Source: Diplonema papillatum (Eukaryota > Euglenozoa > Diplonemea > Diplonemida > Diplonemidae). Taken from it: a stretch of 64,000 bases of DNA. Location of the stretch: NCBI GenBank assembly GCA_030068145.1, contig JAPJBO010000449.1:1-64000 (forward strand). The letters are read 5' to 3'. This document shows, piece after piece, positions 7,406-32,003 of the stretch. The notes beneath the pieces are model-generated. The model was not told the origin of the DNA. It searched no databases and saw only the letters and a program-made list of their open reading frames with translations. Numbering within the stretch: the stretch's first letter is position 1; each line of letters begins with the position of its first letter. The position numbers were made by a program, and so were the translations under genes.

Positions 7406-7503
7406 CGGACACATAAGGCGGGCCATCATCAGCGCGGAACCTGAGTGTCTGCAGACAGGACAGCGGTGTGAGTCTGGTTTGTCAGGCGGCTGTTCGTAGC
7501 TCG
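7406..7503. repeat. 98-bp dispersed repeat, copy 2
   Basis: This copy is identical to 4390-4487 except for one base and includes the TGTCTGCAGACA palindrome (7446-7457). It lies 3.0 kb from copy 1 in the same orientation. It is followed directly by a C/G-rich stretch and a T tract that are not shared with copy 1. Confidence 0.85.
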
Positions 7504-8381: not shown

Positions 8382-8493
8382 TATCGGCCGGATAACGATA
8401 ATGCATTCTCGGCCAACAAGAGAGAGACAGAAGGTTTTTTGAGCAGATAATAGGCCGATACTAATCGGACAATCTAATTAAAAATTATCGGCC
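8382..8493. other. cluster of TATCGGCC motifs in AT-rich DNA
   Basis: The octamer TATCGGCC occurs at 8382-8389 and 8486-8493 and as its complement GGCCGATA at 8453-8460. Partial variants (TCTCGGCC, TAATCGG, GGATAACGATAA) lie between them. Several can pair with each other. Function is unknown; candidates are the subterminal motifs of a decayed DNA transposon or clustered protein-binding sites. Confidence 0.45.
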
Positions 8494-8999
8494 AATTATT
8501 GGCTGTAATCGGTTTAAGAAACCGGCGAATACCCGATAACAGGTCGATCGGTGTGACCCACCGAAGAGGTTTCCTGCAGCTACCCTCGTTGACCACCCAA
8601 GACGTTTCCCCAGTTTGCTTCAGGTTGGTCCCTGATGGCTGGATCCATAATTTGTTACTGTTGCCATCTGTCTTTTGCTTAAAGAAGCTAGTGTCTTCAA
8701 GTCGGTTGAGAGTTGAGGTGGAGCGGGTGTCATTTTTTTTGCGAACGCAGTGTCTATTTTCGCAACGCGGGAGAAAAGGGCTCTTGTTTTTATTTCCCCG
8801 ACTTTCCTCTTTTTGCAACTGGCGGCCCCCTCGAATGTTTCATCGAAAGCCCCCTGCCGGTTTCACTCCAACAAAAGACAGGCCCATCTGTTCTTTGTGC
8901 ACACCAAAACTCTCCTCCTTGTTAAGTTTCACGTAGTACGCTGCTATCTACGACTTCTTGGCACCAACAATGGATTGTAAACACCAAAGACGGTTGAAC

Positions 9000-11900
9000 T
9001 TACACCTTGGTGCTTGGGCTTGCCTTCACAGGGCTTGTTTTTGCGTCCGGGTTTGGACCGGCGGTGGTGTCCCCCTTTTCCTCTGCGATTGCCGGCGGTT
9101 CGTAAGTTGACGGGGTCTCTTTCAGTTCCGCCCCTGAGTTCGATGCCTTCCGCACCAGCCCGGAAGACTTTCGCAGCGGTTCCTCGCAATCGTCGTCAGA
9201 CGTGCCTTCGTAGGCGCTCCCGTTAAGCTCCACGTCGTCGTCGAAGTCGTCATCGTCGAAAATTATCGACTTCATGTTCGGCTTCCCCTGCCGGTTCCGC
9301 ATGATGTAGTACGCCCCAACCACGCACAGCGCGCAGACGACCAAAACGATGCCGGTGATGAGCAATCCCCAGAACGTGCTCCGGCTGTCGCCACCTGCGT
9401 CCGCGGCCGCTTGCTGCTCCGCCGGGGTCGTCGCATTCGTCGCATTCCAGTCGTCTGAGCCGTCATCGGAGGTGTCCATGATCGGTGTGTTCGGAGCGGC
9501 GGGTATCGGAGAATCCGTTTCCGGTGCGAGCGTCGCGTTCGTGGCCGGTGGTTCGGTTTCACGTCGACGGACCAACACGACCTCATCGAGCGGGTCAGGC
9601 ATCCAGCTTGGTTGGTGGTGCGCGATCCAACCGCCGTCGGCGTTCCACGTCTCCCCCCACATTTTTTCGTAGCGACCGTTGACCATCAGCTCGACCTTCT
9701 CAACGATGTATCCATCATCTGTGTGTGCTCGCAGCGCACGCGCCGTCACCTTCGTCAAGTTCTCGACCGGGAACGGGCACGTGTGGGATTCAATAATCCA
9801 CGCCGACCCAACGAGCGGATCGTAGATGACACCGGCGTAGTGAACTTCCTCTTCGGAGTGGAAGTAAACGGTGATCAGGTTCGTCGTCTCGGCGAACTGC
9901 TCCGTGGCGGTAATCCACAACGTCTTGATCGTGTTGGCGACTTTCCCTGGGTGGGTATCGAACCACTCTGAGTCAATATGGCTCATGTCCACAGCTGCAG
10001 CTACGCCACCAGCTTCCACAACGTCCGGTGCCATCATGGAACTCCATCCACCTTTCTTGTACACGTCTACTGACGACACACGCCATGCGTCATTGTCTGT
10101 CCCATTGTACACCAAGCTAATATGAGACACCTTATTAAATACTGAGAAGTTCCCAGCCACCGTCCACCATTCACCCACAGATGGACGATCAACTGTCGCT
10201 ACCAATACGCTCTCATCGTAAGAATGCATGTAGACCGAGAACTTGTCCGTACTGCCCGCATCAGCGTCGTTGGCCGTTCGAATGCGGATACAATTAGGAT
10301 GCGGTGAAAGTACAACCTCATCTAAACGGTCCGGCATCCAACCGGCTTGCACGTGCGAGATCCACCCACCGTAGTTCTGCCAAGTCTGGCCCCACAGCAG
10401 CGTGTAAGTTCCATCCTCCTGCAGCAGTTCAACCTGCTTCACAATGTAGCCATCATTCGAAGCCCGCAACGCTCTGGCAGTCACCATGCGGAGCTCTCCG
10501 ACAGGGAACGGACAGTTCGTGGCTGTGATGGTCCACTCAGATCCCTTCTTGGGGTCGTAAATCACACCAGCATAGTGAACCTGGCGTTCCGAGTGGTAGA
10601 AGATCGTGATGATGTTCGTGGTCTCCGACCACTCCACAGTGTCCGTCGTCCACCTCGTCGTGACCGTGTTGACTTGCAACCTGGCACCCATGTCAAACCA
10701 TTCCGAGTCAATGTGCCCCGCAGTGATAGTCGACACCTCCGGCAATCCAGCTTCTCCTGCTTCAATTGCGTCGGGGCAACTGAGCTGCATCCAGTTACCG
10801 TCCATGTACGCCTCCACGTGGGATACCTGCCAATCGTCATCATTGGTCCCATTGTACACCAAGCTGATGTGTGCCAGCTCACTCACCGAATCGAAAAAGT
10901 CCACGTTGAAAGCCATGACAGATCCCACGGAAGGGCTGTAAACAGTTGCAACCAGGGTGCTCTCACGGTATGTGTGCATGTATACGGAGAACTTGTCAGT
11001 GCTTCCCGCTGCTGCGTCGCTGGATGTGGTGATGCGCAACAACGCTTTCCTCAGCGTAAAAACACACTCGTGCAAAGGATCAGGCATCCAATCTTTTTGC
11101 ACGTGGGTGATCCATCCCCCGTAGGCTTGCCAAGTCTGGCCCCACAACTTCGTGTATACTCCATTCTGCACCAGCTCAACCTTCTCCAGAATGTAACCAT
11201 CGTCCGACGCGCGCAACGCCCGGGCAGTCACCATGAGGAGTTTTTCGACAGGGAACGGGCAATTGGTGGCCTCGATGGTCCATGTCGACCCTTGTTTTGG
11301 ATCGTAGATTGCACCGGCATACTGAACCTGATCTTGCGAGTGGTAGTAGATGGCAATGATGTTCGTCGTCTCCGCCCATAGATCGGTAGAGGTCGTCCAC
11401 TTCGTTGTGATCGTGTTCACCTGCTTCTTTTCACCGAAGTCAAACCACTCCGAGTCGATGTGGCCGGGTGTGATGATCGAAACAGCACGTTGCCCCGCCT
11501 CGGCAGCTTCCATAGCATCAGGACACGAGTAGTTCTCCCACCCATCCTTCGTGTAGATTTCCACGAGCGACACCCACCAATCATCGTCCACAGTGGTGTC
11601 GTTGTACACAAGGCTGATGTGCGCCAGCTCGTCAAGCCCATCAAAGTCCAGGTCGAGCAGCAGCACCTCCCCTGCGGATGGGCTGTCTATCATTCCCACC
11701 AGTTCGCTCCAATGGTACGAGTGCATGTAGACCGAGAACTTCGCAGTGCTGCCGGCATCAGCGGCGCCATCCGTGGTGATGCGCAGCAACACTTTGCGCA
11801 TTGTCAAAACAATCTCATCCAAACGATCCGGCATCCAACCAGCCTGTACATGTGAAATCCATCCTCCGTATGCCTGCCAGTGCACACCCCACAGCTTCAA

Positions 11901-14900
11901 GTAGCTTCCGTCATCCTGCAGCAGCTCCACGGACTCCACGATGTAGCCATCGTTCGATGCGCGCAGCGCCCTGGCAGTCACCATGCGGAGATCTGCGAGA
12001 GGGAACGGACAGTCAGTGGCCGTGATGTCCCACTCCGATCCTCTTTCCGCGTCGTAAATTGCGTCAGCGTAGTGAACCTGTGAGCTCGAGTGGAAGTAAA
12101 TGGCAATGATGTTCGTGGTCTCCGCCCATTGCTCATCGGCAGTGGTCCAACGCGTCGAGATGGTGTTGAGTACCGGTTTCGCACTGATATCAAACCATTC
12201 CGAGTCAAGGTGGCCCTCGTGGATAGGTTCCGGCCCGTTGACTGCATCCGGCGAGAACTGCGAACGCCATCTTTTGTTGATGTACAGCTCCACAGACGAG
12301 ACCCGCCAGTCGTCGTTCTTCGTGCCAGCATACACAAGACTGGTGTGTGCCAACTGGTCGAAAGCGGGGAAGTCGATGCTGAAAATAGACACCTCTCCGA
12401 CAGCTGGACTGACCTTCGTTGCCACCAGCGTGCTGTCATGGTACGTATGCATGTACATCGAGAAACTGTCATTGCTCCCCGAACCTTCCTCACTGGCCGT
12501 TGTGACACGCACCAACAGGTCCGTGTTCTTCAACGTGAAGACAACCTCATGGAGAGGGTCCGGCATCCAACCTGCTTGCACGTGGCTGATCCACCCACCG
12601 GTGCCTTGCCAAGTCGGGCTGTACAACATTGCATAGCTTCCATCCTGCTGCAACAGCTCTACCTTCTCCACGATGTAGCCGTCGTTGGACGCTCGCAAAG
12701 CTCTGGCGGTCACCATGCGGAGTTTTTCGAGAGGGAACGGACAATCATTGGCCGTGATGTACCACACAGACCCTCTTTCCGCATCGTAAATTGCTCCGGC
12801 ATAGTGCGCCATTGTTTCAGAGTGGAAGTAAATTGTGATGATGTTCGTCGTTTCCGACCAGTCGTCTGTAGAAGTGCTAAACTTTGTCGAGATGGTGTTG
12901 ACTGTCGGTTTGTACCAGAAGTCAAACCACTCCGAGTCAACGTGAGCAGCAGTGATGACAGATGCATTCACTTTCCCGCTAGCTACGGACTCCTCCAGGT
13001 CGGGAGAGGTCAAGGCTCGCCAATCCCCGTTCATGTAAAGCTCAACTGCCTTCACCCACCAGTCGTCATTGCTGGTGCCGTTGTACACAAGGCTGATGTG
13101 TGCCAGGTCGGCTATGCCGTCAGCGAAGTCATAGTTCAACAGTAAAACCTGCCCCACAGCCGGACTAACTATCGTCCCCACCAGCAATGATGTGTGGTAC
13201 GAGTGCAGGTAAACCGAGAACTTGTCGTTGCTGCCTGCAGATGCATCGTCGCCGAAAGTCCTGATACGCAACAAAATTGGGTTCACGTTGGTGGTCAAGA
13301 CAACTTCATCCGATGGGATCGTCATCCAACCAGGCTTGGAGTGTATGATCCATCCGCCGTAGCCGTTCCAAGGCTGGCCCCACATCTTCTGGTAACCACT
13401 ACTCGTCATCACCTCAACTCGTTCCACGATGTAGCCATCACCGGTTTGTTCCCGCAACGCGTTGGCAGTCACCATGCGAAGTTCTTCGACAGGGAAAGGG
13501 CAATCGACTGCTTCTATAGTCCACACAGACCCCCGAGATGGGTCGTAAATCACACCGGCGTAGTACGTTTCCGTTTTGGAGTGGAAGTAGATTACAATGA
13601 TGTTCGTAGTTTCCGCGTAGGTCACCGAGGCGGTGGTCCACAACGTCTTGATCGTGTTTGCCGCTGGTTTCGGATGCAGGTCAAACCATTCCGAATCCAT
13701 GTGGCCGGCAGTTATGCGTGCGATACCGTCATCACTTTCCTCAGCATCCGGAGAGGTGAGGTGCTTCCAACCGCCTGTTTTGTAATACTCGACCGATACT
13801 ACTTGCCACTCGTCATCAGCGCTGCCGCTGTAAACCAGGCTGAAATATGACGGCACGCCAAAATCGTAGTCAACGTCGACAATAAGTACCTGACCCGTGC
13901 CCGGAGCCGTAACTGTGGTTGCCAACACGTTCTCATGGTACGAGTGGATGTAGACCGAGAACTTGTCTGTACTGCCGGCTGCCGCACCGTCAGCTGTCGT
14001 AATGCGCAGCAAAGCTCGTTTCGCGGTCAACACGACCTCATCTAAACGGTCCGGCATCCAACCGGCTTGCACGTGCGAGATCCACCCACCGTAGTTCTGC
14101 CAAGTCTGGCCCCACAGCAGCGTGTAAGTTCCATCCTCCTGCAGCAGTTCAACCTGCTTCACAATGTAGCCATCATTCGAAGCCCGCAACGCTCTGGCAG
14201 TCACCATGCGGAGCTCTCCGACAGGGAACGGACAGTTCGTGGCTGTGATGGTCCACTCAGATCCCTTCTTGGGGTCGTAAATCACACCAGCATAGTGAAC
14301 CTGGCGTTCCGAGTGGTAGAAGATCGTGATGATGTTCGTGGTCTCCGACCACTCCACAGTGTCCGTCGTCCACCTCGTCGTGACCGTGTTGACTTGCAAC
14401 CTGGCACCCATGTCAAACCATTCCGAGTCAATGTGCCCCGCAGTGATAGTCGACACCTCCGGCAATCCAGCTTCTCCTGCTTCAATTGCGTCGGGGCAAC
14501 TGAGCTGCATCCAGTTACCGTCCATGTACGCCTCCACGTGGGATACCTGCCAATCGTCATCATTGGTCCCATTGTACACCAAGCTGATGTGTGCCAGCTC
14601 ACTCACCGAATCGAAAAAGTCCACGTTGAAAGCCATGACAGATCCCACGGAAGGGCTGTAAACAGTTGCAACCAGGGTGCTCTCACGGTATGTGTGCATG
14701 TATACGGAGAACTTGTCAGTGCTTCCCGCTGCTGCGTCGCTGGATGTGGTGATGCGCAACAACGCTTTCCTCAGCGTAAAAACACACTCGTGCAAAGGAT
14801 CAGGCATCCAATCTTTTTGCACGTGGGTGATCCATCCCCCGTAGGCTTGCCAAGTCTGGCCCCACAACTTCGTGTATACTCCATTCTGCACCAGCTCAAC

Positions 14901-17900
14901 CTTCTCCAGAATGTAACCATCGTCCGACGCGCGCAACGCCCGGGCAGTCACCATGAGGAGTTTTTCGACAGGGAACGGGCAATTGGTGGCCTCGATGGTC
15001 CATGTCGACCCTTGTTTTGGATCGTAGATTGCACCGGCATACTGAACCTGATCTTGCGAGTGGTAGTAGATGGCAATGATGTTCGTCGTCTCCGCCCATA
15101 GATCGGTAGAGGTCGTCCACTTCGTTGTGATCGTGTTCACCTGCTTCTTTTCACCGAAGTCAAACCACTCCGAGTCGATGTGGCCGGGTGTGATGATCGA
15201 AACAGCACGTTGCCCCGCCTCGGCAGCTTCCATAGCATCAGGACACGAGTAGTTCTCCCACCCATCCTTCGTGTAGATTTCCACGAGCGACACCCACCAA
15301 TCATCGTCCACAGTGGTGTCGTTGTACACAAGGCTGATGTGCGCCAGCTCGTCAAGCCCATCAAAGTCCAGGTCGAGCAGCAGCACCTCCCCTGCGGATG
15401 GGCTGTCTATCATTCCCACCAGTTCGCTCCAATGGTACGAGTGCATGTAGACCGAGAACTTCGCAGTGCTGCCGGCATCAGCGGCGCCATCCGTGGTGAT
15501 GCGCAGCAACACTTTGCGCATTGTCAAAACAATCTCATCCAAACGATCCGGCATCCAACCAGCCTGTACATGTGAAATCCATCCTCCGTATGCCTGCCAG
15601 TGCACACCCCACAGCTTCAAGTAGCTTCCGTCATCCTGCAGCAGCTCCACGGACTCCACGATGTAGCCATCGTTCGATGCGCGCAGCGCCCTGGCAGTCA
15701 CCATGCGGAGATCTGCGAGAGGGAACGGACAGTCAGTGGCCGTGATGTCCCACTCCGATCCTCTTTCCGCGTCGTAAATTGCGTCAGCGTAGTGAACCTG
15801 TGAGCTCGAGTGGAAGTAAATGGCAATGATGTTCGTGGTCTCCGCCCATTGCTCATCGGCAGTGGTCCAACGCGTCGAGATGGTGTTGAGTACCGGTTTC
15901 GCACTGATATCAAACCATTCCGAGTCAAGGTGGCCCTCGTGGATAGGTTCCGGCCCGTTGACTGCATCCGGCGAGAACTGCGAACGCCATCTTTTGTTGA
16001 TGTACAGCTCCACAGACGAGACCCGCCAGTCGTCGTTCTTCGTGCCAGCATACACAAGACTGGTGTGTGCCAACTGGTCGAAAGCGGGGAAGTCGATGCT
16101 GAAAATAGACACCTCTCCGACAGCTGGACTGACCTTCGTTGCCACCAGCGTGCTGTCATGGTACGTATGCATGTACATCGAGAAACTGTCATTGCTCCCC
16201 GAACCTTCCTCACTGGCCGTTGTGACACGCACCAACAGGTCCGTGTTCTTCAACGTGAAGACAACCTCATGGAGAGGGTCCGGCATCCAACCTGCTTGCA
16301 CGTGGCTGATCCACCCACCGGTGCCTTGCCAAGTCGGGCTGTACAACATTGCATAGCTTCCATCCTGCTGCAACAGCTCTACCTTCTCCACGATGTAGCC
16401 GTCGTTGGACGCTCGCAAAGCTCTGGCGGTCACCATGCGGAGTTTTTCGAGAGGGAACGGACAATCATTGGCCGTGATGTACCACACAGACCCTCTTTCC
16501 GCATCGTAAATTGCTCCGGCATAGTGCGCCATTGTTTCAGAGTGGAAGTAAATTGTGATGATGTTCGTCGTTTCCGACCAGTCGTCTGTAGAAGTGCTAA
16601 ACTTTGTCGAGATGGTGTTGACTGTCGGTTTGTACCAGAAGTCAAACCACTCCGAGTCAACGTGAGCAGCAGTGATGACAGATGCATTCACTTTCCCGCT
16701 AGCTACGGACTCCTCCAGGTCGGGAGAGGTCAAGGCTCGCCAATCCCCGTTCATGTAAAGCTCAACTGCCTTCACCCACCAGTCGTCATTGCTGGTGCCG
16801 TTGTACACAAGGCTGATGTGTGCCAGGTCGGCTATGCCGTCAGCGAAGTCATAGTTCAACAGTAAAACCTGCCCCACAGCCGGACTAACTATCGTCCCCA
16901 CCAGCAATGATGTGTGGTACGAGTGCAGGTAAACCGAGAACTTGTCGTTGCTGCCTGCAGATGCATCGTCGCCGAAAGTCCTGATACGCAACAAAATTGG
17001 GTTCACGTTGGTGGTCAAGACAACTTCATCCGATGGGATCGTCATCCAACCAGGCTTGGAGTGTATGATCCATCCGCCGTAGCCGTTCCAAGGCTGGCCC
17101 CACATCTTCTGGTAACCACTACTCGTCATCACCTCAACTCGTTCCACGATGTAGCCATCACCGGTTTGTTCCCGCAACGCGTTGGCAGTCACCATGCGAA
17201 GTTCTTCGACAGGGAAAGGGCAATCGACTGCTTCTATAGTCCACACAGACCCCCGAGATGGGTCGTAAATCACACCGGCGTAGTACGTTTCCGTTTTGGA
17301 GTGGAAGTAGATTACAATGATGTTCGTAGTTTCCGCGTAGGTCACCGAGGCGGTGGTCCACAACGTCTTGATCGTGTTTGCCGCTGGTTTCGGATGCAGG
17401 TCAAACCATTCCGAATCCATGTGGCCGGCAGTTATGCGTGCGATACCGTCATCACTTTCCTCAGCATCCGGAGAGGTGAGGTGCTTCCAACCGCCTGTTT
17501 TGTAATACTCGACCGATACTACTTGCCACTCGTCATCAGCGCTGCCGCTGTAAACCAGGCTGAAATATGACGGCACGCCAAAATCGTAGTCAACGTCGAC
17601 AATAAGTACCTGACCCGTGCCCGGAGCCGTAACTGTGGTTGCCAACACGTTCTCATGGTACGAGTGGATGTAGACCGAGAACTTGTCTGTACTGCCGGCT
17701 GCCGCACCGTCAGCTGTCGTAATGCGCAGCAAAGCTCGTTTCGCGGTCAACACGACCTCATCTAAACGGTCCGGCATCCAACCGGCTTGCACGTGCGAGA
17801 TCCACCCACCGTAGTTCTGCCAAGTCTGGCCCCACAGCAGCGTGTAAGTTCCATCCTCCTGCAGCAGTTCAACCTGCTTCACAATGTAGCCATCATTCGA

Positions 17901-20900
17901 AGCCCGCAACGCTCTGGCAGTCACCATGCGGAGCTCTCCGACAGGGAACGGACAGTTCGTGGCTGTGATGGTCCACTCAGATCCCTTCTTGGGGTCGTAA
18001 ATCACACCAGCATAGTGAACCTGGCGTTCCGAGTGGTAGAAGATCGTGATGATGTTCGTGGTCTCCGACCACTCCACAGTGTCCGTCGTCCACCTCGTCG
18101 TGACCGTGTTGACTTGCAACCTGGCACCCATGTCAAACCATTCCGAGTCAATGTGCCCCGCAGTGATAGTCGACACCTCCGGCAATCCAGCTTCTCCTGC
18201 TTCAATTGCGTCGGGGCAACTGAGCTGCATCCAGTTACCGTCCATGTACGCCTCCACGTGGGATACCTGCCAATCGTCATCATTGGTCCCATTGTACACC
18301 AAGCTGATGTGTGCCAGCTCACTCACCGAATCGAAAAAGTCCACGTTGAAAGCCATGACAGATCCCACGGAAGGGCTGTAAACAGTTGCAACCAGGGTGC
18401 TCTCACGGTATGTGTGCATGTATACGGAGAACTTGTCAGTGCTTCCCGCTGCTGCGTCGCTGGATGTGGTGATGCGCAACAACGCTTTCCTCAGCGTAAA
18501 AACACACTCGTGCAAAGGATCAGGCATCCAATCTTTTTGCACGTGGGTGATCCATCCCCCGTAGGCTTGCCAAGTCTGGCCCCACAACTTCGTGTATACT
18601 CCATTCTGCACCAGCTCAACCTTCTCCAGAATGTAACCATCGTCCGACGCGCGCAACGCCCGGGCAGTCACCATGAGGAGTTTTTCGACAGGGAACGGGC
18701 AATTGGTGGCCTCGATGGTCCATGTCGACCCTTGTTTTGGATCGTAGATTGCACCGGCATACTGAACCTGATCTTGCGAGTGGTAGTAGATGGCAATGAT
18801 GTTCGTCGTCTCCGCCCATAGATCGGTAGAGGTCGTCCACTTCGTTGTGATCGTGTTCACCTGCTTCTTTTCACCGAAGTCAAACCACTCCGAGTCGATG
18901 TGGCCGGGTGTGATGATCGAAACAGCACGTTGCCCCGCCTCGGCAGCTTCCATAGCATCAGGACACGAGTAGTTCTCCCACCCATCCTTCGTGTAGATTT
19001 CCACGAGCGACACCCACCAATCATCGTCCACAGTGGTGTCGTTGTACACAAGGCTGATGTGCGCCAGCTCGTCAAGCCCATCAAAGTCCAGGTCGAGCAG
19101 CAGCACCTCCCCTGCGGATGGGCTGTCTATCATTCCCACCAGTTCGCTCCAATGGTACGAGTGCATGTAGACCGAGAACTTCGCAGTGCTGCCGGCATCA
19201 GCGGCGCCATCCGTGGTGATGCGCAGCAACACTTTGCGCATTGTCAAAACAATCTCATCCAAACGATCCGGCATCCAACCAGCCTGTACATGTGAAATCC
19301 ATCCTCCGTATGCCTGCCAGTGCACACCCCACAGCTTCAAGTAGCTTCCGTCATCCTGCAGCAGCTCCACGGACTCCACGATGTAGCCATCGTTCGATGC
19401 GCGCAGCGCCCTGGCAGTCACCATGCGGAGATCTGCGAGAGGGAACGGACAGTCAGTGGCCGTGATGTCCCACTCCGATCCTCTTTCCGCGTCGTAAATT
19501 GCGTCAGCGTAGTGAACCTGTGAGCTCGAGTGGAAGTAAATGGCAATGATGTTCGTGGTCTCCGCCCATTGCTCATCGGCAGTGGTCCAACGCGTCGAGA
19601 TGGTGTTGAGTACCGGTTTCGCACTGATATCAAACCATTCCGAGTCAAGGTGGCCCTCGTGGATAGGTTCCGGCCCGTTGACTGCATCCGGCGAGAACTG
19701 CGAACGCCATCTTTTGTTGATGTACAGCTCCACAGACGAGACCCGCCAGTCGTCGTTCTTCGTGCCAGCATACACAAGACTGGTGTGTGCCAACTGGTCG
19801 AAAGCGGGGAAGTCGATGCTGAAAATAGACACCTCTCCGACAGCTGGACTGACCTTCGTTGCCACCAGCGTGCTGTCATGGTACGTATGCATGTACATCG
19901 AGAAACTGTCATTGCTCCCCGAACCTTCCTCACTGGCCGTTGTGACACGCACCAACAGGTCCGTGTTCTTCAACGTGAAGACAACCTCATGGAGAGGGTC
20001 CGGCATCCAACCTGCTTGCACGTGGCTGATCCACCCACCGGTGCCTTGCCAAGTCGGGCTGTACAACATTGCATAGCTTCCATCCTGCTGCAACAGCTCT
20101 ACCTTCTCCACGATGTAGCCGTCGTTGGACGCTCGCAAAGCTCTGGCGGTCACCATGCGGAGTTTTTCGAGAGGGAACGGACAATCATTGGCCGTGATGT
20201 ACCACACAGACCCTCTTTCCGCATCGTAAATTGCTCCGGCATAGTGCGCCATTGTTTCAGAGTGGAAGTAAATTGTGATGATGTTCGTCGTTTCCGACCA
20301 GTCGTCTGTAGAAGTGCTAAACTTTGTCGAGATGGTGTTGACTGTCGGTTTGTACCAGAAGTCAAACCACTCCGAGTCAACGTGAGCAGCAGTGATGACA
20401 GATGCATTCACTTTCCCGCTAGCTACGGACTCCTCCAGGTCGGGAGAGGTCAAGGCTCGCCAATCCCCGTTCATGTAAAGCTCAACTGCCTTCACCCACC
20501 AGTCGTCATTGCTGGTGCCGTTGTACACAAGGCTGATGTGTGCCAGGTCGGCTATGCCGTCAGCGAAGTCATAGTTCAACAGTAAAACCTGCCCCACAGC
20601 CGGACTAACTATCGTCCCCACCAGCAATGATGTGTGGTACGAGTGCAGGTAAACCGAGAACTTGTCGTTGCTGCCTGCAGATGCATCGTCGCCGAAAGTC
20701 CTGATACGCAACAAAATTGGGTTCACGTTGGTGGTCAAGACAACTTCATCCGATGGGATCGTCATCCAACCAGGCTTGGAGTGTATGATCCATCCGCCGT
20801 AGCCGTTCCAAGGCTGGCCCCACATCTTCTGGTAACCACTACTCGTCATCACCTCAACTCGTTCCACGATGTAGCCATCACCGGTTTGTTCCCGCAACGC

Positions 20901-23900
20901 GTTGGCAGTCACCATGCGAAGTTCTTCGACAGGGAAAGGGCAATCGACTGCTTCTATAGTCCACACAGACCCCCGAGATGGGTCGTAAATCACACCGGCG
21001 TAGTACGTTTCCGTTTTGGAGTGGAAGTAGATTACAATGATGTTCGTAGTTTCCGCGTAGGTCACCGAGGCGGTGGTCCACAACGTCTTGATCGTGTTTG
21101 CCGCTGGTTTCGGATGCAGGTCAAACCATTCCGAATCCATGTGGCCGGCAGTTATGCGTGCGATACCGTCATCACTTTCCTCAGCATCCGGAGAGGTGAG
21201 GTGCTTCCAACCGCCTGTTTTGTAATACTCGACCGATACTACTTGCCACTCGTCATCAGCGCTGCCGCTGTAAACCAGGCTGAAATATGACGGCACGCCA
21301 AAATCGTAGTCAACGTCGACAATAAGTACCTGACCCGTGCCCGGAGCCGTAACTGTGGTTGCCAACACGTTCTCATGGTACGAGTGGATGTAGACCGAGA
21401 ACTTGTCTGTACTGCCGGCTGCCGCACCGTCAGCTGTCGTAATGCGCAGCAAAGCTCGTTTCGCGGTCAACACGACCTCATCTAAACGGTCCGGCATCCA
21501 ACCGGCTTGCACGTGCGAGATCCACCCACCGTAGTTCTGCCAAGTCTGGCCCCACAGCAGCGTGTAAGTTCCATCCTCCTGCAGCAGTTCAACCTGCTTC
21601 ACAATGTAGCCATCATTCGAAGCCCGCAACGCTCTGGCAGTCACCATGCGGAGCTCTCCGACAGGGAACGGACAGTTCGTGGCTGTGATGGTCCACTCAG
21701 ATCCCTTCTTGGGGTCGTAAATCACACCAGCATAGTGAACCTGGCGTTCCGAGTGGTAGAAGATCGTGATGATGTTCGTGGTCTCCGACCACTCCACAGT
21801 GTCCGTCGTCCACCTCGTCGTGACCGTGTTGACTTGCAACCTGGCACCCATGTCAAACCATTCCGAGTCAATGTGCCCCGCAGTGATAGTCGACACCTCC
21901 GGCAATCCAGCTTCTCCTGCTTCAATTGCGTCGGGGCAACTGAGCTGCATCCAGTTACCGTCCATGTACGCCTCCACGTGGGATACCTGCCAATCGTCAT
22001 CATTGGTCCCATTGTACACCAAGCTGATGTGTGCCAGCTCACTCACCGAATCGAAAAAGTCCACGTTGAAAGCCATGACAGATCCCACGGAAGGGCTGTA
22101 AACAGTTGCAACCAGGGTGCTCTCACGGTATGTGTGCATGTATACGGAGAACTTGTCAGTGCTTCCCGCTGCTGCGTCGCTGGATGTGGTGATGCGCAAC
22201 AACGCTTTCCTCAGCGTAAAAACACACTCGTGCAAAGGATCAGGCATCCAATCTTTTTGCACGTGGGTGATCCATCCCCCGTAGGCTTGCCAAGTCTGGC
22301 CCCACAACTTCGTGTATACTCCATTCTGCACCAGCTCAACCTTCTCCAGAATGTAACCATCGTCCGACGCGCGCAACGCCCGGGCAGTCACCATGAGGAG
22401 TTTTTCGACAGGGAACGGGCAATTGGTGGCCTCGATGGTCCATGTCGACCCTTGTTTTGGATCGTAGATTGCACCGGCATACTGAACCTGATCTTGCGAG
22501 TGGTAGTAGATGGCAATGATGTTCGTCGTCTCCGCCCATAGATCGGTAGAGGTCGTCCACTTCGTTGTGATCGTGTTCACCTGCTTCTTTTCACCGAAGT
22601 CAAACCACTCCGAGTCGATGTGGCCGGGTGTGATGATCGAAACAGCACGTTGCCCCGCCTCGGCAGCTTCCATAGCATCAGGACACGAGTAGTTCTCCCA
22701 CCCATCCTTCGTGTAGATTTCCACGAGCGACACCCACCAATCATCGTCCACAGTGGTGTCGTTGTACACAAGGCTGATGTGCGCCAGCTCGTCAAGCCCA
22801 TCAAAGTCCAGGTCGAGCAGCAGCACCTCCCCTGCGGATGGGCTGTCTATCATTCCCACCAGTTCGCTCCAATGGTACGAGTGCATGTAGACCGAGAACT
22901 TCGCAGTGCTGCCGGCATCAGCGGCGCCATCCGTGGTGATGCGCAGCAACACTTTGCGCATTGTCAAAACAATCTCATCCAAACGATCCGGCATCCAACC
23001 AGCCTGTACATGTGAAATCCATCCTCCGTATGCCTGCCAGTGCACACCCCACAGCTTCAAGTAGCTTCCGTCATCCTGCAGCAGCTCCACGGACTCCACG
23101 ATGTAGCCATCGTTCGATGCGCGCAGCGCCCTGGCAGTCACCATGCGGAGATCTGCGAGAGGGAACGGACAGTCAGTGGCCGTGATGTCCCACTCCGATC
23201 CTCTTTCCGCGTCGTAAATTGCGTCAGCGTAGTGAACCTGTGAGCTCGAGTGGAAGTAAATGGCAATGATGTTCGTGGTCTCCGCCCATTGCTCATCGGC
23301 AGTGGTCCAACGCGTCGAGATGGTGTTGAGTACCGGTTTCGCACTGATATCAAACCATTCCGAGTCAAGGTGGCCCTCGTGGATAGGTTCCGGCCCGTTG
23401 ACTGCATCCGGCGAGAACTGCGAACGCCATCTTTTGTTGATGTACAGCTCCACAGACGAGACCCGCCAGTCGTCGTTCTTCGTGCCAGCATACACAAGAC
23501 TGGTGTGTGCCAACTGGTCGAAAGCGGGGAAGTCGATGCTGAAAATAGACACCTCTCCGACAGCTGGACTGACCTTCGTTGCCACCAGCGTGCTGTCATG
23601 GTACGTATGCATGTACATCGAGAAACTGTCATTGCTCCCCGAACCTTCCTCACTGGCCGTTGTGACACGCACCAACAGGTCCGTGTTCTTCAACGTGAAG
23701 ACAACCTCATGGAGAGGGTCCGGCATCCAACCTGCTTGCACGTGGCTGATCCACCCACCGGTGCCTTGCCAAGTCGGGCTGTACAACATTGCATAGCTTC
23801 CATCCTGCTGCAACAGCTCTACCTTCTCCACGATGTAGCCGTCGTTGGACGCTCGCAAAGCTCTGGCGGTCACCATGCGGAGTTTTTCGAGAGGGAACGG

Positions 23901-26900
23901 ACAATCATTGGCCGTGATGTACCACACAGACCCTCTTTCCGCATCGTAAATTGCTCCGGCATAGTGCGCCATTGTTTCAGAGTGGAAGTAAATTGTGATG
24001 ATGTTCGTCGTTTCCGACCAGTCGTCTGTAGAAGTGCTAAACTTTGTCGAGATGGTGTTGACTGTCGGTTTGTACCAGAAGTCAAACCACTCCGAGTCAA
24101 CGTGAGCAGCAGTGATGACAGATGCATTCACTTTCCCGCTAGCTACGGACTCCTCCAGGTCGGGAGAGGTCAAGGCTCGCCAATCCCCGTTCATGTAAAG
24201 CTCAACTGCCTTCACCCACCAGTCGTCATTGCTGGTGCCGTTGTACACAAGGCTGATGTGTGCCAGGTCGGCTATGCCGTCAGCGAAGTCATAGTTCAAC
24301 AGTAAAACCTGCCCCACAGCCGGACTAACTATCGTCCCCACCAGCAATGATGTGTGGTACGAGTGCAGGTAAACCGAGAACTTGTCGTTGCTGCCTGCAG
24401 ATGCATCGTCGCCGAAAGTCCTGATACGCAACAAAATTGGGTTCACGTTGGTGGTCAAGACAACTTCATCCGATGGGATCGTCATCCAACCAGGCTTTGT
24501 GTGTGTGATCCATCCGCCGTAGCCGTTCCAAGGCTGGCCCCACATCTTCTGGTATTTACCACCAATCATGAGTTCAACTCTCTCTACGATGTAGCCATCA
24601 CTTGCATGATCGCGCAAGGCGTTGGCAGTCACCATGCGAAGTTCTTCGACGGGGAACGGGCAATCCACAGCTTCGACTACCCATACAGACCCCCGTGTTG
24701 GGTCGTAAATAACGCCGGCGTAGTGGGACTGCGTCGCTGAGTGGAAGTAGATCACAATGATGTTCGTCGTTTCCGCATAAGCTTCGGAGGAAGTAATCCA
24801 CATAGACTTGACAGTATTTTCCGCTACCCTGGGGTGCATATCAAACCACTCCGAATCAACATGATCGGCGGTTATCCGAGCGATGCCGTCTGTATTTTCT
24901 TGAGCATCGGGACAGGTCAGATGTTTCCATCCACCCTTCTTGTAGAACTCGACGGACTTCACCTGCCAGTCGTTGTTCTTGGTGCCTTCGTAGACTAAGC
25001 TGAAGTAAGCTAGAGAGAAAATGTCTGGCGCGTAGTCCCCGTTGACGTATGTAACATTGCCGGAGCCAGGTGCTGCGATCGTCGCCGCTCGGATCGACTC
25101 GTGATACGAGTGGATGTTGATCGCAAAGTTATCGTCACTGCCAGCATCCGCAGCGGTGTTCGTCGTGATCCGGATCAAGACTCTCTTCGGTGTCAGCACA
25201 ACCTCGTCCAGCGGATCGGGCATCCAGCTGGGCTGCTGGTGATTGATCCAACCCCCGCTGCTCTCCCAGGTCTGTCCGTACATCGTCGAGAAGGATCCGT
25301 CGGCTTGCTTCAACCCCACCTTCTCCAAAATCCAGCCGTCGCTAATCTCCGAACGAAGAGCCCTGGCGGTCACCATACGGAGTTCAGAGAGCGGAAACGG
25401 GCAGTCGGTAGCTTCCACTGTCACTTCTTGCCCGTTCGTTGGATCGGCGATACTTCCAGCATAGTGAACTGCCAAGTCTGAGTGGAAGAAGATGACGAAT
25501 AGGTTGGTCGATTCCGCCGACGCCACCGGCGAAGTGTACCACCTCGTGGTGATGGTGTTCACGGATGCCCTCGGACGGCCATCAAACCACTCCGAGTCAA
25601 TGTGTCCAACTTCGATGTGTGCCACCCCTCCTGCTGGCACGTCTGGGGCAGTCAAGTCGACCCACCCGCCTTGCATGTACAACTCTACGGCCGCCACTTG
25701 CCAGTCGTCGTTGTCCGTGCCGTTATACACGAGGCTGATGAGAGCCAGCTTATCCATCCCGTCGTAATTGTAGGCGACGACAGCCACCTCCCCCGGGCGC
25801 GAGCTGCTTTTCGTGGCGACCAGCCCGGCTTCGTGGTAGGAGTGCATGTAGATTGAAAAGTCGTCGTCGCTGCCAGCTGCCGGGTCGCTACCCGTCGTGA
25901 TCCGCAGCATTCCGTTGGTTTTAGCGAAGACCGCTTCGTCCATAGGGTTGGGCGCCCATCCCGGTTGCACGTGGTTGATCCACCCCCCGTACCCGTTGAA
26001 CGTTAAACCCCACAGCAACGTGTAGCCGCCGTTCTCCGCCAACTCGACAGTCTTCACGATGTACCCGTCGTTCTTTGCGCGAAGCGCCCTGGCAGTCACC
26101 ATGCGAAGTTGATCGACGGGGAACGGGCAGTCGGTGGCGGTGATGTCCCACTGGGATCCTTGTGCCGGGTCGTAAATGACGCCGGCGTAGTGCACTTTGG
26201 TTTCCGAGTGGTAGAATATTGTGATGATGTTCGTCGATCCTGAAAACTGCACATCGTCGGTGATCCACCGCGTCGTGACTTTGTTGACAACTGGCTTCGT
26301 GCCGGTGAGGTCGAACCACTCCGAATCGAGATGGTCCGCATTGATCGTCGACACGGCAGGCCGACCCGCTTTCTCCTCTTCCAAAGCGTCCGGACACGTA
26401 AAGTTTTCCCATCGGCCGTACATGAACACCTCCATGTGCGACACACGCCAGTTATCGTTACTCGTCCCTGCGTAGACAAGACTGACATGTGCAATGTCGA
26501 AGAATCGATCAAACTCGAAGTTGAAGAAAGCGACCTCCCCTGCAACAGGACTCGTCTTCGTCGCGACCACGACGCTGTCATTGTAAGAGTGCATGTAGAT
26601 CGAAAACGTGTCCACGCTGCCGGAGTCGGCGTCGGTGTACGTCGCGATTCGCAGCAAGACCTTGTGGATCGTCAGCACGACAGCGTCTACAGGAACCGGC
26701 ATCCAACTGGACTGCACATGATTGATCCAGCCACTTGTTCCTTGCCAGTTCTGGCCGTACAAGCTTGCGAAGGTCCCATCGGCCAGTTGCAACTCGGCTT
26801 TCAACACGTGGTACCCATCATTATCCGCGCGGAGCGCCTTGGCGGTCACACTGACAAAGTCCGCAAGCGGGAACGGGCAGTCTTTAGCGACGATGTCCCA

Positions 26901-27461
26901 CTTGGAATTCTTCTCCGCGTCGTAGATGACTCCGGCGTAGTGCACGTCCGTCTCGGAGTGGAAGAAGATGGCGATGATGTTCGTCGTGTCAGCCCAATCC
27001 TCACCCGATGTAGTGAACTTTGTCGCGATCGTGTTCACCGGGGTCTTGTCGTCGTTCATGTCGAACCACTCCGCGTCGATGTGTCCGCTGTAAATCTGGA
27101 CGTGGCCACCCGGCTGGTGGCTTGCGTCCGGCGCGGTCAGATTCTTCCAAACTCCGCCCAACTTCAACTCCAACGTCAGGACCATCCAGTCGTCGTTGTT
27201 CGTACCACTGTACACGAGGCTCGCGTATGCAAAGTCGTCAATCTCGGGTATATCGGCGGTACCCTCTACGACCTCGCCCTCCCCTGGGCTCGAGATGGTA
27301 CCCACCAGCGTGGCGATGGAATATGTGTGGAAGTAGAGCGAGAACGTGTCGATACTCCCAGCTCCCACAAGACTACTGGTGGTAACGCGGTAGTCCACGC
27401 TCGTCAGCGCGCTGCCCTGGGGAACGCCCGCCAAAAGGCAGGCAATGATTTGCCACCGCAT
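9000..27461 (-). CDS. giant secreted/membrane repeat protein, 24 modules of ~248 aa
   Basis: This intronless 6153-codon gene has an ATG start at 27461-27459. Residues 1-19 form a signal peptide ending in GSA-L. Next come 24 modules of about 248 residues. A short Thr/Pro/Asn-rich stalk follows, then one transmembrane helix (about residues 6030-6054, FWGLLITGIVLVV...). The cytoplasmic tail of ~99 residues carries an acidic FDDDDFDDDVE patch. Each module shows LLRITT...GS.DKFSVYMHSYH, ISLVYNGT.NDDW.V..VE.Y, HIDSEWFD, ETTNII.IYFHSE, HYAG.IYDP..GS.W, a CPFP motif and TARALRA..DGYIV..VEL, ending near GGWI.H. Many NGT/NDT sequons suggest N-glycosylation. The strand pattern with DW.V..VE resembles PLAT/LH2 or other beta-sandwich domains, but I do not recognise the family with confidence. 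A surface adhesin, receptor or wall-scale protein is my inference. Confidence 0.93.
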   Translation of the reverse strand: MRWQIIACLLAGVPQGSALTSVDYRVTTSSLVGAGSIDTFSLYFHTYSIATLVGTISSPGEGEVVEGTADIPEIDDFAYASLVYSGTNNDDWMVLTLELKLGGVWKNLTAPDASHQPGGHVQIYSGHIDAEWFDMNDDKTPVNTIATKFTTSGEDWADTTNIIAIFFHSETDVHYAGVIYDAEKNSKWDIVAKDCPFPLADFVSVTAKALRADNDGYHVLKAELQLADGTFASLYGQNWQGTSGWINHVQSSWMPVPVDAVVLTIHKVLLRIATYTDADSGSVDTFSIYMHSYNDSVVVATKTSPVAGEVAFFNFEFDRFFDIAHVSLVYAGTSNDNWRVSHMEVFMYGRWENFTCPDALEEEKAGRPAVSTINADHLDSEWFDLTGTKPVVNKVTTRWITDDVQFSGSTNIITIFYHSETKVHYAGVIYDPAQGSQWDITATDCPFPVDQLRMVTARALRAKNDGYIVKTVELAENGGYTLLWGLTFNGYGGWINHVQPGWAPNPMDEAVFAKTNGMLRITTGSDPAAGSDDDFSIYMHSYHEAGLVATKSSSRPGEVAVVAYNYDGMDKLALISLVYNGTDNDDWQVAAVELYMQGGWVDLTAPDVPAGGVAHIEVGHIDSEWFDGRPRASVNTITTRWYTSPVASAESTNLFVIFFHSDLAVHYAGSIADPTNGQEVTVEATDCPFPLSELRMVTARALRSEISDGWILEKVGLKQADGSFSTMYGQTWESSGGWINHQQPSWMPDPLDEVVLTPKRVLIRITTNTAADAGSDDNFAINIHSYHESIRAATIAAPGSGNVTYVNGDYAPDIFSLAYFSLVYEGTKNNDWQVKSVEFYKKGGWKHLTCPDAQENTDGIARITADHVDSEWFDMHPRVAENTVKSMWITSSEAYAETTNIIVIYFHSATQSHYAGVIYDPTRGSVWVVEAVDCPFPVEELRMVTANALRDHASDGYIVERVELMIGGKYQKMWGQPWNGYGGWITHTKPGWMTIPSDEVVLTTNVNPILLRIRTFGDDASAGSNDKFSVYLHSYHTSLLVGTIVSPAVGQVLLLNYDFADGIADLAHISLVYNGTSNDDWWVKAVELYMNGDWRALTSPDLEESVASGKVNASVITAAHVDSEWFDFWYKPTVNTISTKFSTSTDDWSETTNIITIYFHSETMAHYAGAIYDAERGSVWYITANDCPFPLEKLRMVTARALRASNDGYIVEKVELLQQDGSYAMLYSPTWQGTGGWISHVQAGWMPDPLHEVVFTLKNTDLLVRVTTASEEGSGSNDSFSMYMHTYHDSTLVATKVSPAVGEVSIFSIDFPAFDQLAHTSLVYAGTKNDDWRVSSVELYINKRWRSQFSPDAVNGPEPIHEGHLDSEWFDISAKPVLNTISTRWTTADEQWAETTNIIAIYFHSSSQVHYADAIYDAERGSEWDITATDCPFPLADLRMVTARALRASNDGYIVESVELLQDDGSYLKLWGVHWQAYGGWISHVQAGWMPDRLDEIVLTMRKVLLRITTDGAADAGSTAKFSVYMHSYHWSELVGMIDSPSAGEVLLLDLDFDGLDELAHISLVYNDTTVDDDWWVSLVEIYTKDGWENYSCPDAMEAAEAGQRAVSIITPGHIDSEWFDFGEKKQVNTITTKWTTSTDLWAETTNIIAIYYHSQDQVQYAGAIYDPKQGSTWTIEATNCPFPVEKLLMVTARALRASDDGYILEKVELVQNGVYTKLWGQTWQAYGGWITHVQKDWMPDPLHECVFTLRKALLRITTSSDAAAGSTDKFSVYMHTYRESTLVATVYSPSVGSVMAFNVDFFDSVSELAHISLVYNGTNDDDWQVSHVEAYMDGNWMQLSCPDAIEAGEAGLPEVSTITAGHIDSEWFDMGARLQVNTVTTRWTTDTVEWSETTNIITIFYHSERQVHYAGVIYDPKKGSEWTITATNCPFPVGELRMVTARALRASNDGYIVKQVELLQEDGTYTLLWGQTWQNYGGWISHVQAGWMPDRLDEVVLTAKRALLRITTADGAAAGSTDKFSVYIHSYHENVLATTVTAPGTGQVLIVDVDYDFGVPSYFSLVYSGSADDEWQVVSVEYYKTGGWKHLTSPDAEESDDGIARITAGHMDSEWFDLHPKPAANTIKTLWTTASVTYAETTNIIVIYFHSKTETYYAGVIYDPSRGSVWTIEAVDCPFPVEELRMVTANALREQTGDGYIVERVEVMTSSGYQKMWGQPWNGYGGWIIHSKPGWMTIPSDEVVLTTNVNPILLRIRTFGDDASAGSNDKFSVYLHSYHTSLLVGTIVSPAVGQVLLLNYDFADGIADLAHISLVYNGTSNDDWWVKAVELYMNGDWRALTSPDLEESVASGKVNASVITAAHVDSEWFDFWYKPTVNTISTKFSTSTDDWSETTNIITIYFHSETMAHYAGAIYDAERGSVWYITANDCPFPLEKLRMVTARALRASNDGYIVEKVELLQQDGSYAMLYSPTWQGTGGWISHVQAGWMPDPLHEVVFTLKNTDLLVRVTTASEEGSGSNDSFSMYMHTYHDSTLVATKVSPAVGEVSIFSIDFPAFDQLAHTSLVYAGTKNDDWRVSSVELYINKRWRSQFSPDAVNGPEPIHEGHLDSEWFDISAKPVLNTISTRWTTADEQWAETTNIIAIYFHSSSQVHYADAIYDAERGSEWDITATDCPFPLADLRMVTARALRASNDGYIVESVELLQDDGSYLKLWGVHWQAYGGWISHVQAGWMPDRLDEIVLTMRKVLLRITTDGAADAGSTAKFSVYMHSYHWSELVGMIDSPSAGEVLLLDLDFDGLDELAHISLVYNDTTVDDDWWVSLVEIYTKDGWENYSCPDAMEAAEAGQRAVSIITPGHIDSEWFDFGEKKQVNTITTKWTTSTDLWAETTNIIAIYYHSQDQVQYAGAIYDPKQGSTWTIEATNCPFPVEKLLMVTARALRASDDGYILEKVELVQNGVYTKLWGQTWQAYGGWITHVQKDWMPDPLHECVFTLRKALLRITTSSDAAAGSTDKFSVYMHTYRESTLVATVYSPSVGSVMAFNVDFFDSVSELAHISLVYNGTNDDDWQVSHVEAYMDGNWMQLSCPDAIEAGEAGLPEVSTITAGHIDSEWFDMGARLQVNTVTTRWTTDTVEWSETTNIITIFYHSERQVHYAGVIYDPKKGSEWTITATNCPFPVGELRMVTARALRASNDGYIVKQVELLQEDGTYTLLWGQTWQNYGGWISHVQAGWMPDRLDEVVLTAKRALLRITTADGAAAGSTDKFSVYIHSYHENVLATTVTAPGTGQVLIVDVDYDFGVPSYFSLVYSGSADDEWQVVSVEYYKTGGWKHLTSPDAEESDDGIARITAGHMDSEWFDLHPKPAANTIKTLWTTASVTYAETTNIIVIYFHSKTETYYAGVIYDPSRGSVWTIEAVDCPFPVEELRMVTANALREQTGDGYIVERVEVMTSSGYQKMWGQPWNGYGGWIIHSKPGWMTIPSDEVVLTTNVNPILLRIRTFGDDASAGSNDKFSVYLHSYHTSLLVGTIVSPAVGQVLLLNYDFADGIADLAHISLVYNGTSNDDWWVKAVELYMNGDWRALTSPDLEESVASGKVNASVITAAHVDSEWFDFWYKPTVNTISTKFSTSTDDWSETTNIITIYFHSETMAHYAGAIYDAERGSVWYITANDCPFPLEKLRMVTARALRASNDGYIVEKVELLQQDGSYAMLYSPTWQGTGGWISHVQAGWMPDPLHEVVFTLKNTDLLVRVTTASEEGSGSNDSFSMYMHTYHDSTLVATKVSPAVGEVSIFSIDFPAFDQLAHTSLVYAGTKNDDWRVSSVELYINKRWRSQFSPDAVNGPEPIHEGHLDSEWFDISAKPVLNTISTRWTTADEQWAETTNIIAIYFHSSSQVHYADAIYDAERGSEWDITATDCPFPLADLRMVTARALRASNDGYIVESVELLQDDGSYLKLWGVHWQAYGGWISHVQAGWMPDRLDEIVLTMRKVLLRITTDGAADAGSTAKFSVYMHSYHWSELVGMIDSPSAGEVLLLDLDFDGLDELAHISLVYNDTTVDDDWWVSLVEIYTKDGWENYSCPDAMEAAEAGQRAVSIITPGHIDSEWFDFGEKKQVNTITTKWTTSTDLWAETTNIIAIYYHSQDQVQYAGAIYDPKQGSTWTIEATNCPFPVEKLLMVTARALRASDDGYILEKVELVQNGVYTKLWGQTWQAYGGWITHVQKDWMPDPLHECVFTLRKALLRITTSSDAAAGSTDKFSVYMHTYRESTLVATVYSPSVGSVMAFNVDFFDSVSELAHISLVYNGTNDDDWQVSHVEAYMDGNWMQLSCPDAIEAGEAGLPEVSTITAGHIDSEWFDMGARLQVNTVTTRWTTDTVEWSETTNIITIFYHSERQVHYAGVIYDPKKGSEWTITATNCPFPVGELRMVTARALRASNDGYIVKQVELLQEDGTYTLLWGQTWQNYGGWISHVQAGWMPDRLDEVVLTAKRALLRITTADGAAAGSTDKFSVYIHSYHENVLATTVTAPGTGQVLIVDVDYDFGVPSYFSLVYSGSADDEWQVVSVEYYKTGGWKHLTSPDAEESDDGIARITAGHMDSEWFDLHPKPAANTIKTLWTTASVTYAETTNIIVIYFHSKTETYYAGVIYDPSRGSVWTIEAVDCPFPVEELRMVTANALREQTGDGYIVERVEVMTSSGYQKMWGQPWNGYGGWIIHSKPGWMTIPSDEVVLTTNVNPILLRIRTFGDDASAGSNDKFSVYLHSYHTSLLVGTIVSPAVGQVLLLNYDFADGIADLAHISLVYNGTSNDDWWVKAVELYMNGDWRALTSPDLEESVASGKVNASVITAAHVDSEWFDFWYKPTVNTISTKFSTSTDDWSETTNIITIYFHSETMAHYAGAIYDAERGSVWYITANDCPFPLEKLRMVTARALRASNDGYIVEKVELLQQDGSYAMLYSPTWQGTGGWISHVQAGWMPDPLHEVVFTLKNTDLLVRVTTASEEGSGSNDSFSMYMHTYHDSTLVATKVSPAVGEVSIFSIDFPAFDQLAHTSLVYAGTKNDDWRVSSVELYINKRWRSQFSPDAVNGPEPIHEGHLDSEWFDISAKPVLNTISTRWTTADEQWAETTNIIAIYFHSSSQVHYADAIYDAERGSEWDITATDCPFPLADLRMVTARALRASNDGYIVESVELLQDDGSYLKLWGVHWQAYGGWISHVQAGWMPDRLDEIVLTMRKVLLRITTDGAADAGSTAKFSVYMHSYHWSELVGMIDSPSAGEVLLLDLDFDGLDELAHISLVYNDTTVDDDWWVSLVEIYTKDGWENYSCPDAMEAAEAGQRAVSIITPGHIDSEWFDFGEKKQVNTITTKWTTSTDLWAETTNIIAIYYHSQDQVQYAGAIYDPKQGSTWTIEATNCPFPVEKLLMVTARALRASDDGYILEKVELVQNGVYTKLWGQTWQAYGGWITHVQKDWMPDPLHECVFTLRKALLRITTSSDAAAGSTDKFSVYMHTYRESTLVATVYSPSVGSVMAFNVDFFDSVSELAHISLVYNGTNDDDWQVSHVEAYMDGNWMQLSCPDAIEAGEAGLPEVSTITAGHIDSEWFDMGARLQVNTVTTRWTTDTVEWSETTNIITIFYHSERQVHYAGVIYDPKKGSEWTITATNCPFPVGELRMVTARALRASNDGYIVKQVELLQEDGTYTLLWGQTWQNYGGWISHVQAGWMPDRLDEVVLSPHPNCIRIRTANDADAGSTDKFSVYMHSYDESVLVATVDRPSVGEWWTVAGNFSVFNKVSHISLVYNGTDNDAWRVSSVDVYKKGGWSSMMAPDVVEAGGVAAAVDMSHIDSEWFDTHPGKVANTIKTLWITATEQFAETTNLITVYFHSEEEVHYAGVIYDPLVGSAWIIESHTCPFPVENLTKVTARALRAHTDDGYIVEKVELMVNGRYEKMWGETWNADGGWIAHHQPSWMPDPLDEVVLVRRRETEPPATNATLAPETDSPIPAAPNTPIMDTSDDGSDDWNATNATTPAEQQAAADAGGDSRSTFWGLLITGIVLVVCALCVVGAYYIMRNRQGKPNMKSIIFDDDDFDDDVELNGSAYEGTSDDDCEEPLRKSSGLVRKASNSGAELKETPSTYEPPAIAEEKGDTTAGPNPDAKTSPVKASPSTKV
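10315..24497 (-). repeat. 3720-bp intragenic tandem repeat, ~3.8 copies
   Basis: Within the giant gene, sequence at position n matches n+3720 from 10315 to 20777, so the array runs 10315-24497 (14,183 bp). Lines compared across the copies starting near 10321, 14041, 17761 and 21481 show no mismatch. One unit is 1240 codons, which is five ~248-residue modules, so the frame is preserved. Identity stops abruptly at both ends (10314 and 24498), where neighbouring modules are related but clearly diverged. This points to recent unequal exchange or gene conversion. A collapsed or over-expanded assembly is the main alternative for the copy number. Confidence 0.96.
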
Positions 27462-30185: not shown

Positions 30186-30189
30186 AGCG

Positions 30190-31963: not shown

Positions 31964-32003
31964 GCCCCGGTCCGGCGTACTCCCGCCGCAACGCGAGTCA
32001 TCT

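Follow-up and report, generated by a model that had tools for sequence, protein, structure and literature searches.

The stretch of DNA analysed here, hereinafter the window, comprises positions 1 to 64,000 (64,000 nt, forward strand) of contig JAPJBO010000449.1 (C449) in the Diplonema papillatum assembly GCA_030068145.1. D. papillatum is a euglenozoan flagellate, for which the genome paper describes spliced-leader trans-splicing and introns in ~41% of genes (PMC10161547). The window contains a giant open reading frame (ORF), which encodes a predicted protein of 685.7 kDa. The protein consists of a signal-peptide-like start, 24 modules of ~248 residues, a short linker, a single transmembrane (TM) helix and a tail (Table 1).

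Gene and protein layout

The hydropathy profile of the protein is dominated by one stretch. Specifically, the top 19-residue segment (residues 6030–6048) has a mean Kyte-Doolittle value of 2.76, and the second-best segment, located within the modules, reaches 1.75. The ectodomain has an isoelectric point (pI) of 4.6, and 36 N-glycosylation sequons were counted. The tail of 101 residues contains 21 D/E and 13 K/R. Judged by eye, it resembles the tails of C59a and C59b, two paralogues on contig C59, and more loosely that of the paralogue C1250. Starts like the N-terminus of the window protein are also present in C59a and C59b. The tail pattern common to the window protein (9003–9305) and the paralogues, again by eye, consists of an acidic run and a Y, after which comes an acidic stretch containing PL and K; it may act as a sorting or signalling motif. 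The stop-free ORF of 6153 aa, the motif and profile counts below and the hydropathy bear out the original prediction of a long single gene for a signal-like start, 24 modules, an anchor and a tail, and support a giant single-pass surface-type protein built from one repeated unit.

Both the pattern H.D[AS]EWFD and the motif CPFP occur 24 times, and a profile search of the window protein also returns 24 modules. Five landmarks had been described as invariant. CPFP is present in 24 of 24 modules, but the other exact strings fall short (HIDSEWFD in 10, ETTNII in 20, HYAG.IYDP in 7 and TARALRA..DGY in 17).

Coding status and selection

The ratio of nonsynonymous to synonymous substitution rates (dN/dS) was calculated for ten window modules, each against its two closest partners among the 36 modules of C59a and C59b. 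It lies between 0.09 and 0.31 in all 20 pairs, with dS >1, near saturation, in four. Judged from these comparisons, the giant frame is under purifying selection. An untranslated pseudogene or chance frame is very hard to credit. One relative, C202, is indeed broken by a stop, but a frame of 6153 open codons, the low dN/dS in 20 of 20 pairs, and the signal-like start and TM helix retained in paralogues all argue against such a reading. A variant antigen was considered and rejected, dN/dS being far below 1 and the repeats TTAGGG and CCCTAA being absent from the window's initial 4 kb.

Each module is a pair of homologous domains

Searches of 12 genomic frames supplied the module set (139 matches, of which 6 with at least 40 gaps were removed, leaving 133). 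The first and second halves of 90 distinct modules, which are paralogues and not independent, were compared by hhalign. At each of five cuts, the two halves match with a probability of 99.1–99.2% (E 4e-19 to 5e-18). Similarly, halves taken from the ten distinct window modules alone match with a probability of 93.2% (E 3e-7). On this profile evidence, the ~248-residue module is an A domain followed by a homologous B domain, ~120 residues each. Because the halves are homologous to each other, the module is an A-B pair and the protein contains 48 domains, a two-domain make-up that was missed when the module was taken as one unit.

Predicted fold of the module halves

In fold comparisons of predicted models, the A and B halves are both nearest to the PLAT domains of lipoxygenases and lipases. 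The models of both halves show the PLAT β-sandwich, and both halves are therefore predicted to carry this fold. PLAT structures outrank carbohydrate-binding-module-type folds for both halves, with smaller root-mean-square deviation (rmsd). Foldseek also gives C2 and fibronectin-type rows with low probability. The module had been called unrecognised, with at most a PLAT/LH2-like flavour; the model-based comparison disagrees with the first description and agrees with the second. A wholly new fold is unlikely given these comparisons, as far as the fold families in the listed matches go.

Sequence evidence for PLAT is weak. Residue W72 is invariant across 40 aligned modules; in our own reading of the alignment, it presumably corresponds to the D-W motif of PLAT domains. 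For profile comparison, the reference was a set of eleven PLAT domains from four D. papillatum loci, and 30 shuffles served as control; an earlier comparison (A 1.5%, B 0.15%) used badly cut PLAT domains and is superseded by this run. The A half aligns with these domains in register, with a score of 19.4 against a shuffle maximum of 17.5. Whole-protein scores for Pfam PLAT (PF01477) reach 66.4 bits in the paralogue P0002 and 31.3 bits in the paralogue P0003 against a cut-off of 23, with no stretch passing singly. The best stretches in the two proteins lie on A halves and cover 102 and 85 of the 117 profile positions. Repeats inflate such whole-protein scores, and unrelated families pass as well (NapD in P0002, DUF2147 in the window protein).

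Several results limit the case for PLAT. The structure models were built on ten related sequences. The hhalign probability for the A half is low (5.2%); A and B stacked give 3.2% (18.1 against a shuffle maximum of 17.2), and the B half gives 0.2% (12.2 against 18.1). Pfam PLAT is the commonest family among the 40 modules, yet it is found in only 4 of 40 (E up to 1; best E 0.0047). It is not matched in the window protein, by repeat-summed score or in its two halves, at E 0.1, nor in two pieces of the protein at E up to 10. Taken together, the module halves are most likely divergent PLAT-fold domains, homologous to PLAT. By sequence, they fall short of Pfam PLAT membership, and we do not file them there because their scores stay below single-domain thresholds. 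For the same reason, no strong profile match to a described family, the outcome named beforehand as speaking against a new family, was obtained.

Other libraries gave no better assignment. Against Protein Data Bank (PDB) sequences, one module yields two weak chance matches (E 0.12 and 1.2); with the 40-module profile there is none at E 10. A viral fold library gives one row below E 0.001 (TM-score 0.21, rmsd 14.2), which is not a useful match. The best NCBIfam family is found in 2 of 40 members, weakly and scattered. The window protein also scores for Pfam DUF2147, Beta-Casp and MapZ_C2 (E down to 4e-11), but these families were rejected; no stretch passes singly, and the DUF2147 and MapZ_C2 matches span only 24 and 23 residues, weak matches summed over repeats.

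Higher-order repeat and array length

The 24 modules follow the order A B C D EFGH I EFGH I EFGH I EFGH K. The original count of 24 consecutive copies stands, but only ten of the modules are distinct, and the higher-order repeat had been overlooked. An eleventh type, J, is the last H with its module boundary cut about one residue off. The five-module unit of 3720 bp repeats ~3.8 times. Types D and I both have module 4 of C59b among their two closest partners. D thus looks related to I, and the array would be ABC, four five-module units and K.

Paralogues also contain repeat units at ≥98% identity (C1250, 2172 bp; C379, 726 bp; C170, 4110 and 4299 bp; C59b, 5217 and 1497 bp among others, with 98.8% at shift 5217). 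No such near-identical unit is found in C59a, which has 14 modules. Terminal modules pair across paralogues, 1, 2 and 3 with 1, 2 and 3, and the last with the last of C59b. Against the best partner, dS is 0.22–0.38 for interior modules E–H, 0.49–0.57 for modules 1–4 and 9, and 1.36 for the last module. This pattern of pairing and dS fits recombination within arrays, perhaps also between them.

The number 24 is the module number of the assembly, because a redundant 14-kb contig, C2573, stops within the array and the repeats are free of mismatches. C2573 matches window positions 769–10622 (99.2% over 7474 bp and 99.96% over 2479 bp). The perfect identity over 14,183 bp at shift 3720 may come from assembly or polishing. 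From both observations, the length of the array could be an artefact of assembly, the true gene having another, perhaps much smaller, number of modules. We regard this as less likely than not, because paralogue arrays are comparable in size with copies that have truly diverged (98.8% in C59b; 14 modules in C59a), and because the genome was built with long PacBio reads according to its paper (PMC10161547).

Gene family and distribution

The assembly (271 Mb, 2910 contigs) was searched with two different modules, giving at least 148 and at least 150 matches. Matches are found on C449, C59 (two genes), C1250, C379, C740 (two genes), C170, C2240, C304, C413, C644 and C8, with fragmentary matches on C202 and C2573. 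There are eleven loci besides that of the window, not counting C2573 (redundant), C202 (broken) and C2240, which may be the C170 locus (long C2240–C170 matches are 99.1–100% identical). At C202:271935–273406, broken pieces ~95% identical to the window repeat unit contain an internal stop.

Two architectures are distinguished, with signal, stalk and TM helix judged by eye and C304, C413, C644 and C8 outside the comparison. The first has a signal-like start, 14–30 pairs, a short linker, a TM helix and an acid-patch tail (C449, 24 pairs; C59b, 22; C59a, 14; C1250, 30). C379 belongs here with 15 pairs, although no TM helix is evident in its frame. The second has a signal-like start, 4–6 pairs, a long Ser/Thr/Pro mucin-like stalk, a Cys-rich patch, a TM helix and a tail (C740, 4 and 6 pairs; C2240, 4). 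C170, also of the second kind, has 12 pairs split into three groups and no clear TM helix at the end of its frame.

A search with the giant protein (964 candidates scored) gives two matches, DIPPA_34692 (77% identity) and DIPPA_34685 (62%), both from D. papillatum. They are letter for letter the two C59 frames, one over 3624 of 3624 residues and the other over its first 4316 of 4340. The NCBI model DIPPA_34692 (P0002) departs from the open frame beyond residue 4316, probably by a false splice within the repeats. A module-length profile search (40 modules; proteins 0.55–1.75x of 249 residues) has no match at E 0.01 among 7998 candidates scored. The sole match to a three-module profile (741 aa) among 7993 scored is P0004, assigned to C2573 of the same genome. 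The window modules gave 152 pattern matches in prokaryote genomes and 13 in viral contigs, none of them confirmed. These searches require common short words or patterns and apply protein-length limits, and the diplonemid share of the protein database is uncertain. Within them, the family is so far known from D. papillatum only, and it is likely absent from bacteria, archaea and viruses. The expectation that the module defines a family therefore holds, with multiple loci in this one species. The literature consulted, including parts of the main text of the D. papillatum genome paper (PMC10161547), does not mention it.

Other features of the window and genome

Window positions 3–3156 are a satellite array of 44-bp units, of which an exact 34-base piece has 319 occurrences genome-wide (271 forward, 48 reverse). 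A GC-rich patch (28000–33000, up to 72%) has pieces of a reverse transcriptase (30264–31031) and an endonuclease (32004–32948), and looks like a broken non-LTR-type retrotransposon. Ordinary-looking genes, all on one strand, occupy 43258–61837. Elsewhere in the genome, Pfam PLAT scores above its cut-off in seven matches on C705, C109 and C428, with none on the contigs of the giants. Those PLAT domains are tandem (L029, L034; C705, C109). In two frames they follow a domain that we take to be of the glycerophosphodiester/sphingomyelinase-D type.

Table 1. Positions of the features in the 64,000-nt window
Feature	Position	Strand	Remarks
Giant ORF	9000..27461	−	ATG start, uninterrupted, 6153 aa, ~686 kDa; dN/dS against paralogue modules 0.09–0.31
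Signal-peptide-like start, residues 1–18, MRWQIIACLLAGVPQGSA	27408..27461	−	judged by eye
Modules 1–4 (types A, B, C, D)	24435..27389	−	each a pair of A half and B half, predicted PLAT fold
Modules 5–23, EFGH-(IEFGH)x3, five-module higher-order array	10290..24434	−	profile and module typing
Module 24 (type K), last of array	9552..10289	−	closest partner is last module of C59b
A half of module 7 (example), predicted PLAT-fold domain	22599..22952	−	
B half of module 7 (example), predicted PLAT-fold domain	22206..22598	−	
Self-identical stretch at 3720-bp shift	10315..24497	−	14,183 bp, zero mismatch
Juxtamembrane linker	9369..9551	−	short, Thr/Pro/Asp-rich; from sequence
Single TM helix, residues 6032–6052, GLLITGIVLVVCALCVVGAYY	9306..9368	−	top hydropathy region of protein
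Predicted cytoplasmic tail, acidic patch (DDDDFDDD...YEGTSDDDCEEPLRK)	9003..9305	−	from sequence
RhoGEF	43258–44502		
PDC/Cache sensor piece	48569–49414		
MORN protein	49840–54270		weak WW match
Kinase-like	56699–57442		
Rbx1-type RING	60917–61837		

Discussion

Purifying selection on the open frame, the topology signals, the pair architecture, the predicted PLAT fold, the family and the higher-order repeat were computed here. Beyond these, we infer a surface location, an extended shape, calcium dependence, a ligand and an adhesive role. In the proposed mechanism, the signal peptide would export the chain, and one helix would anchor it with the acidic-patch tail towards the cytoplasm, as in a type I membrane protein. 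Outside the membrane, 48 divergent PLAT-fold (C2-like) β-sandwich domains, in 24 fixed A-B pairs, would form a long chain. Many weak, acidic, probably calcium-dependent contacts with prey surfaces, substrate, mucilage or neighbouring cells may sum to firm attachment, and the array may grow and shrink by recombination between repeat units. We give about an even chance that the giant protein is a long multivalent surface adhesin. Counting against it, besides the weak sequence evidence for PLAT, are that likeness of fold alone says nothing on function and that C379, with 15 pairs, has no evident TM helix in its ORF, as judged by eye.

Adhesion or a coat is suggested because of the surface topology, the multivalency, the acidic ectodomain, the N-glycosylation sequons and the mucin-stalked sister group. 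Sessile cells of D. japonicum and D. aggregatum are described as stuck firmly to surfaces in mucilage, with a glycocalyx and a hair coat, and D. aggregatum cells also stick to each other (PMC5845003). We rank adhesion first and a structural coat, a less probable role, second. The chains would then make a hair coat, glycocalyx or mucilage and bind chiefly one another, not prey. The glycocalyx, hair coat and mucilaginous envelope of these two other species (PMC5845003), the highly acidic and repetitive ectodomain and the mucin-stalked sister architecture speak for it, but the gene is not tied to those structures, and the tail common to several paralogues hints at a receptor-like inward link. Rather improbable is a role of the pairs in binding lipids or membranes, by docking on prey membranes or holding secreted hydrolases at the cell surface. 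The nearest folds of the models are PLAT domains of lipid enzymes, and the role assumed for PLAT is calcium-dependent membrane access (PMC9196635), but no enzyme domain is seen in the chain and the fold by itself does not carry the ligand. Less probable still are lectin-like domains that bind polysaccharides in the way of calcium-dependent carbohydrate-binding modules, above which PLAT structures rank with smaller rmsd for both halves.

The family is a concrete candidate for the means by which cells attach to prey, substrate or each other. Predation on eukaryotes by D. papillatum is an inference of its genome paper, which also reports gene replacement, so the family is testable (PMC10161547). 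The large natural PLAT-fold array is useful for asking what the domain does outside lipid enzymes, and the gene clearly illustrates how a higher-order repeat grows within coding sequence. What is new is the architecture together with the family, on the predicted surface of a marine flagellate. It is possible, though we hold it only tentatively, that diplonemids evolved a giant adhesin class of their own, independently of the kinetoplastid families bodonin, DGF-1 and VSG. A PLAT domain would have been duplicated to an A-B pair, up to 30 pairs (60 domains) stacked on a TM helix or a mucin-like stalk, and array length changed by multi-module recombination, with reach and avidity tuned by copy number.

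To our knowledge, these are the largest PLAT-fold arrays, LOXHD1 being the sole comparison checked in print. LOXHD1, a hearing protein of human and mouse, is likewise a PLAT-type array and is not known to have a signal peptide or an anchor. In contrast, the window protein has 48 predicted PLAT-fold domains in fixed A-B pairs, a signal-like start, a TM anchor and sub-threshold Pfam PLAT scores, compared with the 15–16 PLAT domains of LOXHD1 (PMC9196635). Both halves share the predicted β-sandwich with the PLAT/LH2 domains (PF01477) of lipoxygenases, lipases and RAB6IP1, but the window protein has no attached enzyme and no single-domain Pfam match.

Bodonin of Bodo saltans and DGF-1 of Trypanosoma cruzi are large multi-copy surface proteins of kinetoplastids and have been proposed to adhere to prey, substrate or host (PMC4728078, PMC9967923). 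The window protein, whose surface place is predicted, resembles them in size and copy number of the family. Bodonin has seven TM helices on average and an ectodomain likened to autotransporter/β-barrel folds, whereas the window protein has one TM helix and PLAT-fold pairs. Specifically, the C-terminal TM set of the bodonin/DGF-1 type (about seven to nine) is not present in the window protein, where one stretch is strong (2.76) and the next reaches 1.75. Protein searches gave no match outside D. papillatum that would indicate homology to bodonin, with the Bodo saltans content of the candidate set being uncertain. Plasmodium LAP1, an LCCL-domain protein with two PLAT domains, is an example of PLAT in an adhesive-like protist protein (PMC11285972). 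LAP1 combines these two with other domains, whereas outside the membrane the window protein is predicted to consist of PLAT-fold pairs alone.
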